A stretch of 64,000 bases of DNA from an uncultured Bacillota bacterium (GTDB taxonomy: Bacteria > Bacillota_I > Bacilli_A > RFN20 > CAG-826): the NCBI GenBank assembly GCA_949289845.1, contig CASEPN010000001.1:1-64000 (forward strand), given 5' to 3'. The notes beneath the pieces were generated by a model, which worked only from the letters and a program-made list of their open reading frames with translations, searched no databases and had not been told where the DNA came from. Within the stretch, counting starts at the first letter, position 1, and each line of letters begins with the position of its first letter. Positions 16,680 through 64,000 of the stretch are shown here, piece by piece. A program made the translations under genes and the position numbers.

Positions 16680-17263
16680 ATGAAGAAAGCGGTCTTCCTC
16701 GGGCTCCTGCCCTTCCTTCTTGTTTCCTGCGGGCTTGAGGAGGCTTCGTCGAGCGTTTCCTCTCCTCCGGTTTCGTCAGAGCCCTCTTCCTCTTCCTCCT
16801 CATCCGTTTCTTCCGCCCCCTCTTCTTCCTTAAGTTCCTCCTCCTCATCCTCCAGGGGAAAGGGAAGCGACCTCCATAACCTCAGGGTATCCTGCGCGGT
16901 CATGAACAACAGGCACGGGAACGACGCCTATGACGAGGAAGGGGTGCCTGGCATGTGGTATCCGAACGTCATTTCCGACGGAAGCCCTGCGCACCGCTAC
17001 GAGGGTGACCACCGGGCGATGCGGCGAGGATCCTCTTCTACATGGCTCTCCGCTACCCGGAGCTCTCGCTTGTTGAAGGAACCACTCTCACTGGATGCGA
17101 GATGGGGAACCTCGACTCCCTCCTTCGCTGGAATGAGGAAGATCCAGTGGACGAGTTCGAAATGCAGAGGAACGGAAGAATCTACGAGTACCAAGGGAAC
17201 CGGAACCCGTTCGTGGACCATCCGGAGCTAGCGAAGACATTTTATGGGGAGGGACGGGCATGA
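16680..17263 (+). pseudogene. Decayed lipoprotein endonuclease I (EndA/Bsn family)
   Basis: The gene starts as a lipoprotein: MKKAVFLGLLPFLLVSC with a lipobox Cys near residue 17, then a Ser-rich linker. It then jumps straight into the second half of an endonuclease I domain (SDLHNLRVS, NNRHGNDAY). The first half, including the catalytic REHVWP-type motif of the family, is missing. Around 17019-17020 the frame shifts by one base: GDHRAM in the first frame continues as AARILFYMALRYPEL from 17021 in another, running to NRNPFVDHPEL and a stop at 17261-17263. AGAGGAGG at 16665-16672 is still a good ribosome-binding site. Both lesions together make a nuclease product unlikely. Confidence 0.8.
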
Positions 17264-19236
17264 TCCATGAGAAAGAGGGCAGGCTCATCTATGAGCGCGG
17301 GAGCGAGAGGGTCGTCTTAAGCGCCTACGGCATGGACGGCATTCGGGTAGAGGCCACGAACGGAAGCGATTATTTGAAAAATGAATGGCTTTTCGAGGGG
17401 ATATCTCCCTCCGTAGTCCGCACTTGGAAGGATGAGGATGACAAGAGATGGATTGAGAACGGACGAATTTGCGCGAGCATTACGGAGCTTGGCCAGATCC
17501 GTTTCTATAAGGGGGACAAGGTAGTTCTCGAGGAGATGTACCGTTCCTTCGACTTCGACCAGCCACGGGCATATGCGCTAAGGAAGGTCGCCCGCGAGTG
17601 GAAGGGAGAAAGGGGAGGCCTCTTCCGCCTCGTCGCAAGGTTCGAGGCGAGGGCGGAGGAGCGAATCTACGGGATGGGCCAGCATCAGACGGAGTTCCTT
17701 AATCTCAAGGGCGCCACCTTGGAGCTGGCGCAGAGGAATTCCCAGATCAGCGTTCCCTTCTATCTCTCCAATCTCGGCTATGGCTTCCTTTGGAACAACC
17801 CAGGGATCGGGGAGGTGTCCTTCGCGAAGAACGGTACTTCCTGGAGGATGGAAGGGACGAGGAAGCTGGACTACTGGGTCACCGTGGGAGACACCCCTCT
17901 GGAGATCCATGGGAACTTCATGGACCTCGTCGGGAGGCCTCCCGCCTTCCCGGAGGATCTGACAGGCTTCTGGCAGAGCAAGCTTCGCTATAGGACTGAG
18001 GAGGAAGTGCTTGAGGTCGCAAGGGAATACCATCGGAGGGAGATTCCCCTCTCTTGTATCGTCATCGACTTCTTCCATTGGCCGCGGCAAGGAGAATGGA
18101 AGTTCGACCCGGTCTACTGGCCTGACCCTAAGGGCATGGCGGAGGAACTGGAGTCTCTCGGGGTGCGCCCGATGGTGTCCATCTGGCCGACCGTGGACAA
18201 GAAGAGCGAGAACTTCGCCCTTATGGCAGAGCAGGGGATGCTGATCTCCCTCGATCGCGGCTCCCAGGCCTACGACTACCAGGGCGATTGCATGATCGCC
18301 GACTTCACGAGCGAGCGGACCAAGGGGTTCGTCTTCTCCAAGGCCAAGGGTGGATACTGGGACAAGGGGATCCGTCTCTTCTGGCTCGACCAGGCGGAAC
18401 CTGAGTTCACTTGCTATGACTTCGATAACTACCGCGGGAGCCTTGGCTCCTGGCTGGAATGCGGGAACGTCTATCCTGTTCATTACCTGAAGGCTTTTTA
18501 TGAGGGGTCTAAGAAGAACGGGTTGGACAAGCCCGTGTCCCTGATTCGTTCCGCCTGGCTTGGGAGCCAGAGGTACGGCGGCCTCGTCTGGAGCGGGGAC
18601 ACCGCGGGGACGTTCGCCTCGATGAAAGACCAGCTTGCCGGAGGGCTTTCGATGGGAATCGCAGGAATCCCCTGGTGGACCGCCGACATAGGAGGCTTTT
18701 CCGGCTATCCCGAGGATCCCTTGTGGAGGGAGCTCCTGGTCCGTTGGTTCGAGTGGGCGGTCTTCTCTCCTGTCCTTCGCCTTCATGGGGACCGCCAGCC
18801 TTCCTCCATCCCTCCCTTGGACGAGCGAAACTGGGGAGGCGGTTTCTGCAGGACAGGGCTTCCTAACGAAATCTGGAGTTTCGGCGAGGAAACATATGGG
18901 GTTTTGAAAGACCTTATCTTCTTAAGGGAGAAGATCCGTCCTTACGTTTCCTCCCTCTTCGAAGAAAGCGAAAGGACCGGGATTCCCTTGATGAGGCCCT
19001 TGTTCCTCCATTACCCAGATGATCCTGAGTGCTGGGAAAGGGAGGACGAGTATCTCTTCGGCAGGAAGTACCTGGTCGCGCCTATCCTTGAGGCTGGGGC
19101 TAGGAAGAGGGAGGTGTACCTTCCCTCAGGCCGCTGGAGGGATATCAGGGACGGCTCCATCCACGAGGGGGCTTCCCGGATCGAGGCGGACGCGCCTCTC
19201 TCCTCTATACCTGTCTACGAGCTCCTCGAGGACTAG
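17260..19236 (+). CDS. Glycoside hydrolase family 31 alpha-glycosidase
   Basis: A 658-residue cytoplasmic GH31 enzyme, which releases alpha-linked glucose or xylose from oligosaccharides by a retaining mechanism. The nucleophile is Asp377 in WLDQAEPEF and the acid/base is Asp447 in WSGDTAGTF. The N-terminal beta-sandwich carries YGMGQHQTEFLNLKG, and RLHGDRQP follows the barrel. Length and motifs fit a complete enzyme. Its ATG overlaps the stop of the decayed endonuclease gene (ATGA), so it now sits behind a broken gene. Alpha-glucosidase and alpha-xylosidase activity cannot be told apart here. Confidence 0.9.
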   Translation: MIHEKEGRLIYERGSERVVLSAYGMDGIRVEATNGSDYLKNEWLFEGISPSVVRTWKDEDDKRWIENGRICASITELGQIRFYKGDKVVLEEMYRSFDFDQPRAYALRKVAREWKGERGGLFRLVARFEARAEERIYGMGQHQTEFLNLKGATLELAQRNSQISVPFYLSNLGYGFLWNNPGIGEVSFAKNGTSWRMEGTRKLDYWVTVGDTPLEIHGNFMDLVGRPPAFPEDLTGFWQSKLRYRTEEEVLEVAREYHRREIPLSCIVIDFFHWPRQGEWKFDPVYWPDPKGMAEELESLGVRPMVSIWPTVDKKSENFALMAEQGMLISLDRGSQAYDYQGDCMIADFTSERTKGFVFSKAKGGYWDKGIRLFWLDQAEPEFTCYDFDNYRGSLGSWLECGNVYPVHYLKAFYEGSKKNGLDKPVSLIRSAWLGSQRYGGLVWSGDTAGTFASMKDQLAGGLSMGIAGIPWWTADIGGFSGYPEDPLWRELLVRWFEWAVFSPVLRLHGDRQPSSIPPLDERNWGGGFCRTGLPNEIWSFGEETYGVLKDLIFLREKIRPYVSSLFEESERTGIPLMRPLFLHYPDDPECWEREDEYLFGRKYLVAPILEAGARKREVYLPSGRWRDIRDGSIHEGASRIEADAPLSSIPVYELLED

Positions 19237-54055: not shown

Positions 54056-54574
54056 CTATATAACCTCGTTTTGCTTCCCTTCGGCAAGCGCATCCATCTC
54101 CTTGAGAGATGAGAGAAAGGCCTCCATCGTCTTTTCCCTAAGCGACTTGGTCCTGAGCTCGCACTCCCAGACGACGAGGACGCGGATGCCCATTTCGTCT
54201 AGCTTTTTATAGTTCCAGCGGTCCCTTTCCTTGTTCCTCTCGAGCTTCATGAGCCAGTAGGGGGACGCCCCGGAGGGAACCTTAGTGCTCTGGCATTCGT
54301 GAAGATGCCAGAAGCAGCCGTTCACGAAGATGGCAAGGCGAAGCCGCGGGACGTAGATGTCCGGGCTCCCCGGGAAGCGCCTGTCGTTGAGCCGGTAGCG
54401 GTAGCCTGCCTCCCTCACCCAGGAACGGACGAGAAGCTCCGGGGAGGTATCCTTGCCCCTGATGCGGGACATGATGTAGGAGCGGGCCTCCTTCCCAAGC
54501 CTCTCCTTCTCCTCGGGGTCCTCGCTCTCCTTCGCCTCGTGGAGAAGCATCGCCGCCTTGCCCGGCTTCTTCAT
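54056..54574 (-). CDS. vsr: Very short patch repair endonuclease (Vsr)
   Basis: A 172-residue Vsr-family protein that nicks next to T:G mismatches left by deamination of 5-methylcytosine. The fold is clear: ARSYIMSRIRGKDTSPELLVRSW, GYRYRLNDRRFPGSPDIYVPRLRLAIFVNGCFWHLHEC, ...KLERNKERDRWNYKKLDEMGIRVLVVWECEL. The N-terminus has about 30 extra residues. Vsr usually sits beside a cytosine methyltransferase; none is present in this window. TAGCAT (extended TGC, 54583-54588) lies 8 nt before the ATG, a leaderless-type start. Confidence 0.93.
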   Translation of the reverse strand: MKKPGKAAMLLHEAKESEDPEEKERLGKEARSYIMSRIRGKDTSPELLVRSWVREAGYRYRLNDRRFPGSPDIYVPRLRLAIFVNGCFWHLHECQSTKVPSGASPYWLMKLERNKERDRWNYKKLDEMGIRVLVVWECELRTKSLREKTMEAFLSSLKEMDALAEGKQNEVI

Positions 54575-54625
54575 GGCTAGGGATGCTAGCACCTCGGAAG
54601 GTGGAAATCCCCTTTCATTTAATTG

Positions 54626-54647
54626 AAAAAAGGCCGCTTCCGCGACC
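54626..54647 (-). terminator. tRNA-Ser(CGA) terminator
   Basis: GGTCGC-GGAA-GCGGCC followed by TTTTTT on the minus strand. Confidence 0.8.
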
Positions 54648-54658
54648 TTCGCTCCTCT

Positions 54659-54749
54659 TGGCGGAGAAGAAGGGATTTGAACCCTTGCTGGGCTTGCACC
54701 CACTATCGGTTTTCGAGACCGACCCCTTCAGCCGCTTGGGTACTTCTCC
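54659..54749 (-). tRNA. tRNA-Ser(CGA)
   Basis: Class II tRNA with acceptor GGAGAAG, long variable arm, anticodon CGA, CCA encoded. A TATATC -10 and TTGATG lie upstream (54764-54790). Confidence 0.93.
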
Positions 54750-58076: not shown

Positions 58077-58090
58077 GGTAACCGCTTTCA
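58077..58090. promoter_or_regulatory. Candidate cre-like site after proS
   Basis: TGAAAGCGGTTACC on the minus strand (58077-58090) fits the CcpA-site consensus, but lies between proS and a terminator, an odd place for control. Confidence 0.3.
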
Positions 58091-58141
58091 TGGGGAAAGT
58101 CCCCCTTGACCCGCAATTTCGCCCTTACTACTATTTGCACG

Positions 58142-58188
58142 CCGCCGGTTTCCCTCTGGCCCCTTGAAAGGGAAATTGGCGGTTTTTT
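58142..58188 (+). terminator. proS terminator
   Basis: A 14-bp stem (58142-58155 with 58169-58182, two G-U pairs) followed by TTTTTT. Confidence 0.9.
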
Positions 58189-58242
58189 CGTACCTTCGGG
58201 CGAACTTCTTCCCTGAGGGAAGATGGAGGAAGCCTTCTGCGT

Positions 58243-58273: not shown

Positions 58274-61200
58274 ATGGAACAGGAACTTCTTCGGTTCGAG
58301 ATCGACTGCGGCCCGGACGTCAGCTATCTCTACTATCAGTCGGAATCCTTCGAGAAGAAGATCAACCCAGGACACCAGAACAGCTTCAGCTTCCTTCGCT
58401 CCGTGACGATCCGGAACAACGGGGACGTCGATCTCGAGGACGTCGTGCTTTCCATCTCCTTCAGCGGCCTCGAGGAGCCCCTTATGTCCATCGAGGACAC
58501 CAAGATCCAGGCGGTGCCCGCGCATTCCTCGCTCCTCATCGACTGCTTCGGCATCCGGATGGACGCCCCCGCCCTCTACAAGATCCGGGAGTCGGTCCCG
58601 GGGCAATTGACCTTCCGCCTCCTCTCCAAGGGGGAGGTCGTCCTGACCGAGGTCCGGGACCTTGCCGTCCTGCCTCTCACCAAGTGCTTCCGTCCCGGTT
58701 ACGTGGACGAGATCCTCGCCAGCTACGTAACCCCGAACGACCCACTGGTCATCGAGCTTACCAAGCGGGCCTCCCAGATTCTCGCGGAACGGGGGGAGCT
58801 CTCGGGCCTTTCCGCATACCAGAGGAGGGATGCGAACTACGTCCTCCAGCAGCTTGACGCCCTGTACCTGGCCGCCCAGGGGCTCGGGATCGACTACCTC
58901 GTCAACTCTTTCTCCGGGGAACGCCTCTGGCGTCTCCGCACCCCGCGCCAGGTCATCATGGACAAGGTCGGCTGCTGCATCGACCTCTCTTTCCTCTACG
59001 CGAGCCTTTGCGAGGCCGCGGGGCTGAACGCCCTCCTCGTGAACGTCGACACCCACATGCTCGTCGGCGTCTGGCTTGAGGACGGGGTGTTCGGCGAGGC
59101 AAAGGAAGAGCGCGGCCAGTGGCTCAGGACCGAGGGGGAGAAGGGGTTCAACCGCCTCGTCTTCGTGAACGCGGTCTGCCTCACCAACGGGCGTCACAGC
59201 AACTTCTCGGACGCCGTCGACAGCGGACTCCGCTGCATGAGGGAGTACAAGGTCTTCCACTACGCCCTCGACATCCATGGCTGCCGCATGGGGAGGGTCC
59301 TGCCCCTTCCCTCGCCCGACAAGGAAACCGGCGAGGTCGACTTCCAGGCCCTTGCCACGGACGACCTCGAGTACTTCCTCCCCCATGTCGACCCCTCCGA
59401 GAGGCGCTTCATCGAGGGGAAGGAGCGTCGCCCCGAGAACCGCTTCGACCACTGGGAGAAGAAGCTCCTGGACCTGGACCTCGGGAACCGGCTGATCAAC
59501 CTCCCTTTCAACAAGAGCACCGTGGAGTTCGTCGTCCCCGACGGGGAGAGGCTCCTTTCCTTCATGGCGGAGCAGGGGAGGGAGCGCCTCCTCATGGCCG
59601 CCTCCCCCAAGACGATGGGGCCTGGGGAGGGAAGGCTCACCCGCGAGCACGTCGAGCTCGCCGAGGATGGCTACCGGAGGGGCACCCTCTACTTCGACGA
59701 TTCCCACGAGAAGGGGGACTCCCTCCTCAAGTCCCTGGCGAGGAAGGCGAACACGACGATTGCTGAGACGGGCTGCAATCCCCTCTTCCTCACCCTTGGG
59801 CTCATCCGCTGGTTCCCGAGCGAGGAAGCCGCCGCCCACTCCACCGGCGCCGTCTACTCGCCGATCTTCCTGCTCCCGGTCCGGATGCCCCGCCAGAAGA
59901 GCGGACCCTTCTACTACTTCGACTACTCGATCGACGACATCCAGCTGAATACGACCGCCTTCGAGTACTTCCGCCAGGCCTTCGGACTCGACTTCGGGGC
60001 CCTTTCCTCGACGAGGAAGATTGTGGATTCCGAAGGGAAGGTGGACTTCCGCGCGGTGGTGAGCACGATCCGCAAGATCATCCTCAACATGAAGAACTGG
60101 GCGGTCGTCGAGAACCGCTCGGTCCTCGGTCTCTTCTCCTTCGCCCACTTCGTCATGTGGAGCGACATCCACACCCGCCGGAAGCAGCTGATGGAGCACC
60201 CGATCATCGGCTCCTTCGTGAACGGAGGAAGCCTCCTCTCCCGCCAGGGCGAGGAGATCGGGGAAGCGGAGCTCGACGAGAGGATCCGCCCGACGGAGAT
60301 GGCGATCCCCCTGCCCGCGGACAGCTCCCAGATCAAGGCCATCCACGAGGCCGAGGAAGGGGAGAGCTTCATCCTCGACGGCCCTCCGGGGACCGGGAAG
60401 AGCCAGACCATCGCGAATCTCATCGTCGACCTCATCTACCACGGGAAGAAGGTCCTCTTCGTCGCGGAGAAGGAGGTCGCCCTCAACGTCGTCAAGGACC
60501 GCCTCAAGGAGCTAGGCCTCGGGGACTTCTGCCTCGAGGTGGCCAACCCCAACACCCCCAAGTCCCAGATCCTTCAGCAGATCGGAAGGCTCCTCGAGCT
60601 CGGGCCCAAAGCCGCCGACGGGAGGAAGTTCCAGGAAGTCGCAGACGAGATCCTCGCCGAGAGAAACTCCCTGAACGAGACCCTCCGCACGATCCATGAG
60701 AGAAGGGACTTCTTCCTATCGATCTACGAGGCGATCATCCTCAACCTCTCCCACAAGGACGGCGCGGAAGGAAAACGAATCGAGATTCCCGAGGACTACG
60801 CTCGTTCCCTGACCGAAGAGACCCACAAGGAGGCGCTCCGCCGCCTGATGGAGGTCGTGACCTACGACCATGAGGTGGGCGGCTACCGCCGCTCGCCCTT
60901 CCGGCCCTATCTCCGGAAGGACTACTCCCTGGGCGCCCGCGAGGCCTTGAAGGACCGCCTGCCCGAGCTGGAGAAGCTCCTCAGGGATGCCGCCCTTGCC
61001 ATGGAGAACGTCTGCCGCGCCCACCCCTTCCTTGCGAACCTAAGGGCGAACGCGGAGCTCATCGTCAGCCTCTTCAAGGAGTTCCGTTCAGGGGCCGATT
61101 ACTGCGCGGAATTCGTCGGGAACAAGGTTATCCTTGCAAATCGTGCCGCAATCACCAGGAAATTGGATGAGAAGAAGGCGTATCTCACCGCGATGGAGGC

Positions 61201-64000
61201 AATCCTTGCCAAATGGAAGGAGGAGGCGCTCTCCCTTTCCGGCGGGGATCTGAAGGGGGACTACCTCATCGCCCAGAACCTCCCGCTCTTCCAGCGGATG
61301 GGGGCGATGCGAAGGCTCCGGAAGAAGCTTGCCCCCTACGCCAAGGGAAAGGAATCCCTCACCGACCGCGGTATCTCCGAGCTTTCCGACCAGCTCGTCG
61401 CCTACAGGAGGGCCAAGGAGTACTACGAGAGCACGTCCGAAGGAGGGGGCGAGGCCCTCTTCTTCCTCGCCAAGAGCTTCCCGGACATGAAGAAGGCCGC
61501 GGACGCCGAGCGCGTGCTCACGAAGCTCGCCCGCACCTTCGCCCTTTCCGACCTCATGGCGAGCCTCGTCCCGGCCAAGGACCATGACGAGGAGGAGATC
61601 GCCCGCTTCTTCCGCCAGTTCGGCGAGAAGCCGGAGCTCGCGTTCGACCAGACGGTGGAGAGGCTCTCCGCCGCCCTGTCCGCTCTTTCCGAGTATGGGG
61701 CGACCCTCCTCAAGGAGAACGCCTTCGATTACGAGCGCTACCCGGACGCGGAGGGCTTCTTCCTCGAGGCGGCCGAGCGCACCCACCTTTGCTACGCGAC
61801 GATCGGGAGCCTTTCCTCCTGGTGCCGTCTCCTCCGGAACATCGAGGATGCCAGGGAACTCGTTCCCTCGGAGCTCCTCGATTTATATGAGGAAGGGAAG
61901 ATCGGGCCGGAGGCGCTCCTCCACGTCTACGAGGCGAGCCTCGGCTACAAGATCTACATCCTCGCTTCCGAAGGGACTGAGGTGGGCTCCCTCAACTCCC
62001 GCGACACCGAGCGCGCGATCGCCGAGTACGGGCGCCTCACCAAGGAGTTCGCTCGCCTCACCGTCCTTGAGACCTTCGCCCGCGTCAGCGCTTCTTTCCC
62101 TGACGTCAGCCAGCCCACCGCCCCCTCCACGAAGATCGCGAGCCTCCGCAAGATCTGCGCCTCCGAAGGAAGGAAGTTCACCCTCCGCCGGATCTTCGAC
62201 GACTACGGCGACCTGATCCACACCTACTGCCCCTGCTTCCTGATGTCCCCGGTCGCCGTGGCCCAGTACCTGAACGCGGAGAAGCATAGCTTTGACGTGG
62301 TCGTCTTCGACGAGGCCTCGCAGATCCCGACCTCGGAGGCGATCGGCGCCATCTCCCGCGCGAAGAGCGCTATCATCGCCGGCGACCAGCAGCAGATGCC
62401 TCCGAGCAACTACTTCCAGACCCCCGTCACCATGGCGCTGGACGAGGAGGACGCTCCCTATACGCTCGACGAGGACCTCGAGTCCCTCCTCGACGACGCG
62501 ATCGTCATCGGCTTCCCGCGCCACCGCCTCATCTGGCACTACCGGAGCCGCCACGAGTCCCTCATCGCCTTCAGCAACCGCCGCTTCTATAAGAACGACC
62601 TCCTGACCTTCCCCTCGCCAGGGGAGGAGGGGAGCTCCGTCAGCTTCCGCAAGGTGAACGGGCACTTCCTCCACGGGAGGAGGACGAACCGCGAGGAGGC
62701 CGAGGCAGTGGTCAAGGAGATCGTCCGCCGGCTCAAGGACCCCGTCCTCAGGAACCGCTCGATCGGGGTGGTCACCTTCAACGAGGCCCAGCAGAATCTC
62801 ATCGAGGACCTCCTAGAGAGGGAGTTCGCGAGGAACTCGCTCCTCAATAGCACCCCGGGCGGGGAGACGATCTTCGTGAAGAACCTCGAGAACGTCCAGG
62901 GGGACGAAAGGGACTGCATCCTCTTCTCCGTCACCTACGGGCCTGACAAGGAGAGCGGTTCGATCTCCATCAACTTCGGCCCCCTCAGCAGGGCGAAGGG
63001 CGAGCGGAGGCTGAACGTCGCCGTGAGCCGCGCCCGCGAGGAGATGATTGTCTTCTCCTCCCTCCAGCCGGAGGACATCAGGGCCGAACGAGCGAAGAAC
63101 GCCGGCGCCTCCTATCTCCGCGACTTCCTCCGCTTCGCCAAGGAAGGGGTGCCCTCCCTCCCGCACGTCCTCGGGGAAAGCCTCCGCGCGGAGCGTCCCT
63201 CCGTGGCGAGCTTCCTCGCCGAGGACCTCAGGAAGCTGGGCTTCGGGGCAGACGTGAACGTCGGGGCCTCAACCCTCAAGGTCGACGTCGCCATCCGCGA
63301 CCCTAGGAAGAGCGAGGGCTACATCCTCGGCGTGCTCCTTGATGGGGAGAGCTATCTCTACGCCCCGACCTGCCGCGACAGGAACCTCGTCCAGCCCGGG
63401 ACCCTCCAGGGCCTCGGATGGAACCTCATGCGCCTTTGGTCGGTCGAGTACTTCGACCACCCCAAGGACGCCGTCGCCCTCATCGTCAGCAGGGTGAACG
63501 CGCTTCTCGAGGAGACTCCATCCCGGAGCGAGGAGGAGAAGAAGGAGACCTCGATCCTCGACGAGCTCCTCGACAAGAGGGGGGAGCGGAACCGGAACGC
63601 CGTCCATTACGTGAGGCTCCCCGCGGAGACCGCCCTTTACCAGGACACGGACGCGGAGCGGGAGCGCCTCAGCTCCTATTTCCGCCGCATAATCGTCGCG
63701 GAATATCCGATTTCCGTGGAAACCTTGAAGGAGCGCTTCCGCGAGAGGTACGGCCTCCGCTCAATGAGCGTGGCCCAGCGCGGCCTCTTCCAGCGGGCCC
63801 TGGAGAAAACGGAGTGCCACGTCGAGTTCTGCGGCTCGGACCTCCGCTTCCTCTATCCTTCGCGCGAGGAAAGCTTCTACTACCGCTTCTACCGCCTGCC
63901 CGACCCAGGGGAGTCCCGCGAAGTCACCAGCGTCAGCTACCACGAGCTCGGGAACGCCATGCGCGACATTCTCGAGGATCAGGGGAAGATGACCGCGAGC
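58274..64000 (+). CDS. Giant DUF4011-SF1 helicase-nuclease-DUF3320 protein, 3' end beyond window
   Basis: The frame is open for 1909 codons to the window edge. Domains in order: a beta-sandwich N-terminus; a transglutaminase-like segment (GCCIDLSFLYASLCEAAGL, Cys234/235, then DTHMLVGVWL with His261); a DUF4011 region (KLLDLDLGNRLINLPF); a superfamily 1 helicase with Walker A GPPGTGKS (703-710) and Walker B DEAS (1346-1349), late motifs VQGDERDCILFS and LNVAVSRAREEM; a Vsr/MTES_1575-like nuclease domain (KVDVAIRDP with Asp1671; GVLLDG); and a DUF3320 tail (YPISVETLKERF). The family occurs in putative defence genes. The nuclease Glu position is Leu1688. Confidence 0.85.
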   Translation, partial: MEQELLRFEIDCGPDVSYLYYQSESFEKKINPGHQNSFSFLRSVTIRNNGDVDLEDVVLSISFSGLEEPLMSIEDTKIQAVPAHSSLLIDCFGIRMDAPALYKIRESVPGQLTFRLLSKGEVVLTEVRDLAVLPLTKCFRPGYVDEILASYVTPNDPLVIELTKRASQILAERGELSGLSAYQRRDANYVLQQLDALYLAAQGLGIDYLVNSFSGERLWRLRTPRQVIMDKVGCCIDLSFLYASLCEAAGLNALLVNVDTHMLVGVWLEDGVFGEAKEERGQWLRTEGEKGFNRLVFVNAVCLTNGRHSNFSDAVDSGLRCMREYKVFHYALDIHGCRMGRVLPLPSPDKETGEVDFQALATDDLEYFLPHVDPSERRFIEGKERRPENRFDHWEKKLLDLDLGNRLINLPFNKSTVEFVVPDGERLLSFMAEQGRERLLMAASPKTMGPGEGRLTREHVELAEDGYRRGTLYFDDSHEKGDSLLKSLARKANTTIAETGCNPLFLTLGLIRWFPSEEAAAHSTGAVYSPIFLLPVRMPRQKSGPFYYFDYSIDDIQLNTTAFEYFRQAFGLDFGALSSTRKIVDSEGKVDFRAVVSTIRKIILNMKNWAVVENRSVLGLFSFAHFVMWSDIHTRRKQLMEHPIIGSFVNGGSLLSRQGEEIGEAELDERIRPTEMAIPLPADSSQIKAIHEAEEGESFILDGPPGTGKSQTIANLIVDLIYHGKKVLFVAEKEVALNVVKDRLKELGLGDFCLEVANPNTPKSQILQQIGRLLELGPKAADGRKFQEVADEILAERNSLNETLRTIHERRDFFLSIYEAIILNLSHKDGAEGKRIEIPEDYARSLTEETHKEALRRLMEVVTYDHEVGGYRRSPFRPYLRKDYSLGAREALKDRLPELEKLLRDAALAMENVCRAHPFLANLRANAELIVSLFKEFRSGADYCAEFVGNKVILANRAAITRKLDEKKAYLTAMEAILAKWKEEALSLSGGDLKGDYLIAQNLPLFQRMGAMRRLRKKLAPYAKGKESLTDRGISELSDQLVAYRRAKEYYESTSEGGGEALFFLAKSFPDMKKAADAERVLTKLARTFALSDLMASLVPAKDHDEEEIARFFRQFGEKPELAFDQTVERLSAALSALSEYGATLLKENAFDYERYPDAEGFFLEAAERTHLCYATIGSLSSWCRLLRNIEDARELVPSELLDLYEEGKIGPEALLHVYEASLGYKIYILASEGTEVGSLNSRDTERAIAEYGRLTKEFARLTVLETFARVSASFPDVSQPTAPSTKIASLRKICASEGRKFTLRRIFDDYGDLIHTYCPCFLMSPVAVAQYLNAEKHSFDVVVFDEASQIPTSEAIGAISRAKSAIIAGDQQQMPPSNYFQTPVTMALDEEDAPYTLDEDLESLLDDAIVIGFPRHRLIWHYRSRHESLIAFSNRRFYKNDLLTFPSPGEEGSSVSFRKVNGHFLHGRRTNREEAEAVVKEIVRRLKDPVLRNRSIGVVTFNEAQQNLIEDLLEREFARNSLLNSTPGGETIFVKNLENVQGDERDCILFSVTYGPDKESGSISINFGPLSRAKGERRLNVAVSRAREEMIVFSSLQPEDIRAERAKNAGASYLRDFLRFAKEGVPSLPHVLGESLRAERPSVASFLAEDLRKLGFGADVNVGASTLKVDVAIRDPRKSEGYILGVLLDGESYLYAPTCRDRNLVQPGTLQGLGWNLMRLWSVEYFDHPKDAVALIVSRVNALLEETPSRSEEEKKETSILDELLDKRGERNRNAVHYVRLPAETALYQDTDAERERLSSYFRRIIVAEYPISVETLKERFRERYGLRSMSVAQRGLFQRALEKTECHVEFCGSDLRFLYPSREESFYYRFYRLPDPGESREVTSVSYHELGNAMRDILEDQGKMTAS

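Follow-up and report, generated by a model that had tools for sequence, protein, structure and literature searches.

The window, that is, the whole stretch of DNA that was analysed (64,000 nucleotides; positions 1-64,000 of contig CASEPN010000001.1, assembly GCA_949289845.1), comes from an uncultured Bacillota bacterium (CAG-826) and ends within a very long gene on the forward strand. The open reading frame is uninterrupted from the ATG at 58274 to the stop codon at 64147 (1957 codons), and its end lies 147 nt past the window edge. The start ATG has a GGAGG Shine-Dalgarno sequence, and an alternative upstream ATG at 58223 has a weak one. Comparison with a 96% identical orthologue gave a dN/dS of 0.062, with all domains constrained, so the ORF is a gene under constraint. 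The features of the locus are as follows.

58080-58090, +, conserved box AACCGCTTTCA, just upstream of the promoter-like site
58106..58134, +, promoter-like site TTGACC-17-TACTAT, the sole promoter-like match in the scanned 11.9 kb (0.8 expected by chance)
58141..58189, +, leader hairpin resembling a terminator (stem of 15 bp, loop of 13 nt, T run), located at the presumed start of transcription
58274..64000 (stop 64147, outside the window), +, ProA-like protein, 1957 aa, from matches to NF058533 and PDC-S37
58274..58678, +, N-terminal beta-sandwich, aa 1-135 (AlphaFold2 model; VIA-align matches to Ig-like/beta-sandwich folds, Z about 9)
58691..59308, +, transglutaminase/cysteine-protease-like domain, aa 140-345 (PNGase, TglA and TG2 among the VIA-align matches)
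58976-58978, 59054-59056 and 59168-59170, +, putative triad Cys235, His261 and Asn299, from comparison with relatives
59462..59956, +, DUF4011, aa 397-561 (Pfam PF13195, E 1.6e-22)
60320..63073, +, split SF1 helicase with a large insertion, aa 683-765 and 1284-1600 (Pfam AAA_11, AAA_12)
63206..63508, +, Vsr/MTES_1575-type nuclease fold with a degenerate active site, aa 1645-1745 (VIA-align 3hrl and 3r3p; residue comparison)
63596..64000 (continues to 64144), +, tandem winged-helix C-terminus (DUF3320 region), aa 1775-1957 (AlphaFold2, VIA-align)
64165-64183 (outside the window), +, conserved terminator between the ProA-like stop codon and jetA
64205-69494 (window coordinates, outside the window), +, Wadjet type I JetABC without JetD (PADLOC/Pfam)

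A sequence-only reading of the locus had proposed that the gene has its own leader and forms a terminator-isolated unit, and this was borne out by the promoter-like site and hairpin upstream and by the terminator after the stop codon. TTGACC and the upstream box are conserved in five species. In these species the hairpin is near letter-for-letter identical, with an invariant loop (GGCCCCTTGA), whereas the flanking DNA has diverged and the ProA proteins are down to 49% identical. The hairpin, predicted to fold at -24.6 kcal/mol (z -2.6), is present in one copy per genome, only upstream of the ProA-like gene, in 5 of the 37 genus genomes, and an Rfam search of the leader gave no match. A conserved promoter with a terminator-like hairpin in front of the ProA-like gene in five species is, as judged from sequence conservation, new here. 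Two roles are conceivable for the hairpin, as an attenuator or as an independent RNA about 50 nt long.

Family and domain architecture

The best curated match of the protein was the NCBIfam family NF058533, "anti-phage protein ProA" (1438 bits), in a full-length, co-linear alignment of aa 34-1920 with positions 5-1900 of the 1903 in the model. Because this score is below the curated equivalog cut-off of 1500 bits, we named the protein ProA-like and not ProA. The best PADLOC profile was the candidate family PDC-S37 (PDLC05009), a full-length match (984 bits; aa 388-1949 to 7-1541 of 1550), and PADLOC Hhe trailed it at 433 bits. The sequence-only reading had likened the protein to large DUF4011-helicase-Vsr-type proteins, naming Hhe as one group of them, and had proposed a PADLOC run as a check. 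The protein is not Hhe: NCBIfam Hhe (NF042953) gave 632 bits against a curated cut-off of 2000, with the best alignment limited to the C-terminal half. Its link to the wider DUF4011/Hhe world did hold, since the protein shares DUF4011, the SF1 helicase, the Vsr-like domain and the DUF3320 region with Hhe. Taken together, these comparisons identify the ORF as a real, divergent ProA-like protein.

The domain order, which had been read correctly from the sequence, is DUF4011, SF1 helicase, nuclease fold and a winged-helix/DUF3320 end, as judged by Pfam, AlphaFold2 and VIA-align. Pfam E values were 1.6e-22 for DUF4011, 4e-19 for AAA_12, 4e-16 for AAA_11 and 8e-16 for the MTES_1575 REase; matches to transglutaminases were weak and sub-threshold (E 0.008 and 0.02). 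Structure prediction, also proposed as a check, recovered the transglutaminase-like, Vsr-type nuclease and tandem winged-helix folds. AlphaFold2 on alignments of real relatives reached a mean pLDDT of 87.6 for aa 1-640 and 88.8 for aa 1600-1957. The equivalence of DUF3320 and wHTH is taken from PMC3710099. Among the Foldseek matches of the C-terminal model, JetB chains ranked high, but with E >0.01 and an rmsd of about 14, and VIA-align did not return JetB; therefore, we read this match as generic winged-helix likeness. The helicase Walker A motif (GPPGTGKS) and DEAS box (DEASQ) are essentially invariant across 106 relatives.

The transglutaminase-like segment had been regarded as an extra in front of DUF4011. 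This view could not be kept, because the ProA model spans the segment and Anantharaman et al. (2013; PMC3710099) had described proteins that combine a transglutaminase-like peptidase, an SF1 helicase, a Vsr REase and winged helices; the domain is thus neither added nor a new architecture. The MTES_1575-type giant proteins of that study resemble the window protein in all these parts but differ in that the window protein is without HEPN by Pfam and its nuclease motif is degenerate. From ProA/PDC-S37, with which it shares a co-linear, full-length match including the transglutaminase-like N-terminus and an identical domain order, the window protein differs in its score below 1500 bits, the absence of the nuclease Glu and His, its genus-core instead of patchy presence, and the hairpin leader. 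The nuclease Glu and His are also missing in recognised ProA members, e.g. relative L164 (NF058533, 2125 bits). A search of the open literature for ProA as an anti-phage protein found no paper, including the source paper behind NF058533. The label "anti-phage" for the ProA-like protein is therefore an inherited database name, and a defence role is plausible on this similarity.

The nuclease and transglutaminase-like domains

The sequence-only reading had included a nuclease among the domains. The fold is indeed present in the AlphaFold2 model, in which VIA-align matched the Vsr-type structures 3hrl and I-Bth0305I (3r3p), both with Z 11.1, but the active site is degenerate. We compared the window protein with 106 relatives from genus, family and genome-collection loci. 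An intact nuclease motif was found in 16 of them, with Glu1688 in 16/16, His1695 in 14/16 and Glu1645 in 15/16. The window protein has Ala1645, Leu1688 and Leu1695 at these positions and retains Asp1671, Asp1690, Asp1702 and Arg1703. By our comparison of the motif with E. coli Vsr, His1695 would be at the position of Vsr His69, and Asp1671 at that of Asp51. The degenerate group (n=89) has Glu1688 in 0/89, His1695 in 1/89 and Glu1645 in 18/89, and keeps Asp1671 in 87/89 and Asp1690 in 83/89.

In a tree built from the helicase columns, the presence of Glu1688 needs 2 changes, compared with 15.1 when labels are shuffled, and the 89 degenerate rows, including the window protein, are separated from the rest by a branch with 100% SH-aLRT. 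The nuclease domain is nonetheless under purifying selection (w 0.04-0.10). Degeneracy of the nuclease site in one well-supported clade (89/106 relatives), with the fold still under purifying selection, is a second new result of these sequence comparisons. We infer that the nuclease of the window protein is dead or strongly altered and, since selection on the domain persists, that it would still be useful as a binding domain. FASTKD4 offers an analogy: it is Vsr-like, its His69-equivalent is replaced, and it is reported to be nuclease-inactive and RNA-binding (PMC11879112).

The window also carries a stand-alone Vsr mismatch endonuclease gene at 54056-54703 on the minus strand (TIGR00632, 125 bits; cut-off 97.9). 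Its listed GTG start overlaps a tRNA-Ser (54659-54749), suggesting that the true start is probably further in.

The model of aa 140-342 was compared with transglutaminase/papain-like folds by VIA-align and matched 3esw (PNGase; Z 9.5), TglA (9.2) and TG2 (8.5), with BDI_1141 also among the matches, within Z 8.5-9.5. A PDB sequence search with the N-terminal alignment gave no match. Cys234/235 and His261 are present as the sequence-only reading had named them, and Cys235 is the one conserved among relatives. Among the long members, 72 have both Cys235 and His261, 18 have neither and 4 are mixed, and among 9 independent tree pairs 6-7 show both residues changing together, with opposite changes being very rare. 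Of the 72 relatives with Cys and His, 71 carry Glu, Asp or Asn at position 299 (Asn in the window protein), and w of the domain is about 0.07. Judged from these patterns, Cys235 and His261 behave like a catalytic site that most lineages retain and that some have lost as a pair. The joint retention or loss of the two residues, also new here, makes the transglutaminase-like domain a better candidate than the nuclease for the effector. Both residues are missing in several ProA-like lineages, including one subclade inside the genus (L103-L107), so not every member can depend on Cys-His chemistry.

Two further ideas were rejected. A downstream gene (c6) considered as a new effector in the Cys/His-less subclade has a sequence that reads as a glycosyl hydrolase, with a homologue at 17260-19236 of the window. 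Coupling between gain of the transglutaminase-like domain and loss of the nuclease is not supported, because both are intact in Pseudomonadota and some other relatives (L155, L157, L165, L166, L204, L207), and because some short forms lack the transglutaminase-like domain although their nuclease is degenerate (L154, L171, L178).

Distribution and neighbouring genes

The ProA-like gene was found in 33 of the 37 genus genomes and in all 21 good ones, with orthologue identity down to 32-52%. At 18 of the 22 genus loci examined, it lies beside an EAL-like gene and/or proS. At three others, all from one subclade (L091, L092, L096), it directly follows not proS but an apparent mnmE-mnmG-rsmG-parA-parB cluster; these names were assigned by inspection, and of these only the ParB-like sequence was examined. 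In the wider family the gene is patchy, with a long match in about 22-23 of 116 genomes. Presence in 21/21 good genus genomes, usually by the EAL-like gene and proS, together with patchiness in the family, is likewise new here.

Homologues are carried on 360 plasmid records, 242 of them from Klebsiella, and on one phage-labelled metagenomic record. In the one plasmid record inspected, such as L213 (NZ_CP155712.1), insertion sequences flank a DUF3320 protein, with a YafO-family toxin gene nearby. We also scanned the two nearest genes on each side in about 30 relatives outside the genus. Counted per family, few PADLOC families recur and the Pfam families are mainly housekeeping; apart from the Wadjet genes of one subclade and a few candidates, no defence family recurred in the neighbour scans. 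Conservation as a housekeeping gene in all relatives, unlinked to defence genes, had been set beforehand as a finding that would speak against defence. The genus-wide presence, the usual place beside EAL-like/proS and the neighbour scans point that way, but the patchiness in the family and the plasmid homologues do not, and on the latter grounds a defence role stays plausible.

The sequence-only reading had supposed that partner genes may follow beyond position 64,000. Genes for JetA, JetB and JetC (PADLOC 145, 124 and 629 bits) do follow on the same strand, 57 nt past the ProA-like gene, but behind their own terminator and promoter and in one subclade only. A search for JetD (PF09983) in this assembly, which is 98% complete, gave no match. 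The adjacency is seen in five species, in which ProA is 47-96% identical, and a sixth is consistent with it at a contig break; most ProA-like genes of the genus have no adjacent JetABC. In genome G137 a JetC that is 71% identical lies far from the ProA-like gene, and JetABC was next to 0 of 80 relatives elsewhere. In the species compared, TATAAT (within about 64184-64205 in window coordinates) stands 7-9 nt before the jetA ATG (64205), which suggests that the jetA mRNA is leaderless. Because of the conserved terminator and the TATAAT, the ProA-like gene and JetABC look like separate units, and we treated JetABC as a neighbour, not a partner.

In the family sample of 116 genomes, JetA was found in 36 and a JetD match in only 7-8, so that JetD-less JetABC is common in the lineage. 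No ScpA was found in this sample, in which control searches were positive, and no SMC hinge was found across the 37 genus genomes except one JetC. The lineage thus seems to be without canonical Smc-ScpAB. In some genomes JetABC could take the place of condensin, but a JetC match is absent in 8 of the 21 good genus genomes.

Possible function of the ProA-like protein

The account that we prefer, tentatively and at somewhat less than an even chance, is that of a chromosomal ProA-like surveillance protein, in which the helicase and C-terminus would sense nucleic acid and the N-terminal domain would act as the effector. In the alignment and the predicted structures, the helicase motifs are intact, the C-terminus is of a nucleic-acid-binding type (pseudo-Vsr and tandem winged helices), and the N-terminal Cys-His pair is intact. 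The C-terminal domains might bind foreign or abnormal nucleic acid and leave it uncut; movement of the helicase powered by ATP, or a conformational change, might be the sensing step; and the N-terminal domain might then cleave or modify a protein. The outcome would probably be that phage replication is stopped or the infected cell is halted. The gene would have become a resident core component of the genus, and the hairpin leader may control it in one subclade. The similarity to ProA/PDC-S37, the invariant helicase motifs, the co-retention of Cys and His, the loss of the nuclease site under selection, the FASTKD4 precedent and the plasmid spread all favour surveillance, which is weakened by its basis in a database name, the score below the cut-off, the lineages without Cys and His, and the mostly ordinary neighbours. 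The defence role that the sequence-only reading had called probable is plausible.

A role in maintenance is also compatible with the constant presence of the gene and its conserved surroundings across the genus. Here the protein would be a resident core helicase without anti-phage function in the genus, serving to unwind or remodel nucleic-acid structures in repair, at R-loops or in replication conflicts. We consider this possible but doubtful. Apart from its presence in every good genus genome and the EAL-like gene and/or proS alongside, the gene has an overall dN/dS of 0.089, compared with 0.084 for proS in the same genome pair, and the nearest PDB sequence relatives of the protein are the Upf1/SMUBP-2 helicases. 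Such a role sits poorly with the patchiness in the family and the hundreds of plasmids elsewhere, with orthologue identities that fall so low within the genus, with the full-length likeness to a family named anti-phage, and with a protease-like domain that would be unusual in a repair helicase. Because the gene is mobile elsewhere and fixed in the genus, we give a resident immune gene and a maintenance gene weights that differ little. That the protein is an active helicase-nuclease degrading invading DNA, as the sequence-only reading and the 2013 architecture prediction propose, seems unlikely. The confirmed fold, the remaining Asp1671, Asp1690, Asp1702 and Arg1703 and the purifying selection on the domain are compatible with activity, but Glu1645, Glu1688 and His1695 are replaced by Ala, Leu and Leu, the His at the presumed Vsr His69 place is all but lost from the clade while most intact relatives have it, and FASTKD4 with a comparable loss is inactive. 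Least probable of all, and very improbable in our judgement, is a single system in which ProA replaces the missing JetD nuclease of Wadjet. The close, same-strand JetABC, the lack of JetD and the adjacency in five species, with a contig break in a sixth that is consistent with it, suggested it; we rejected a single operon of this kind as a leading idea on the conserved terminator, the separate jetA promoter and the lack of linkage elsewhere, including most of the genus and G137, and the ProA nuclease also looks dead.

Extending the surveillance reading to the family, we suggest, more as a conjecture than as an expectation, that a large ProA clade of Bacillota and Bacteroidota that includes the window protein consists of non-nucleases: helicase-coupled cysteine proteases/transglutaminases with a nucleic-acid-binding pseudo-nuclease Vsr domain, in which an immune protein has become a fixed core gene in the genus, controlled in one subclade by a hairpin RNA leader of its own. 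If so, a family filed as helicase-nucleases would act via its protease-like domain in most members sampled, and both the residues to mutate and the readout would change, to protein cleavage rather than DNA degradation. A whole genus would also carry a defence-type gene as a fixture, controlled in one subclade by a candidate RNA attenuator. By description, a similar case is the P. aeruginosa DUF4011 gene at core defence hotspot 1, a host-core gene flanking variable cargo, which PMC10250203 treats as a flanking core gene.
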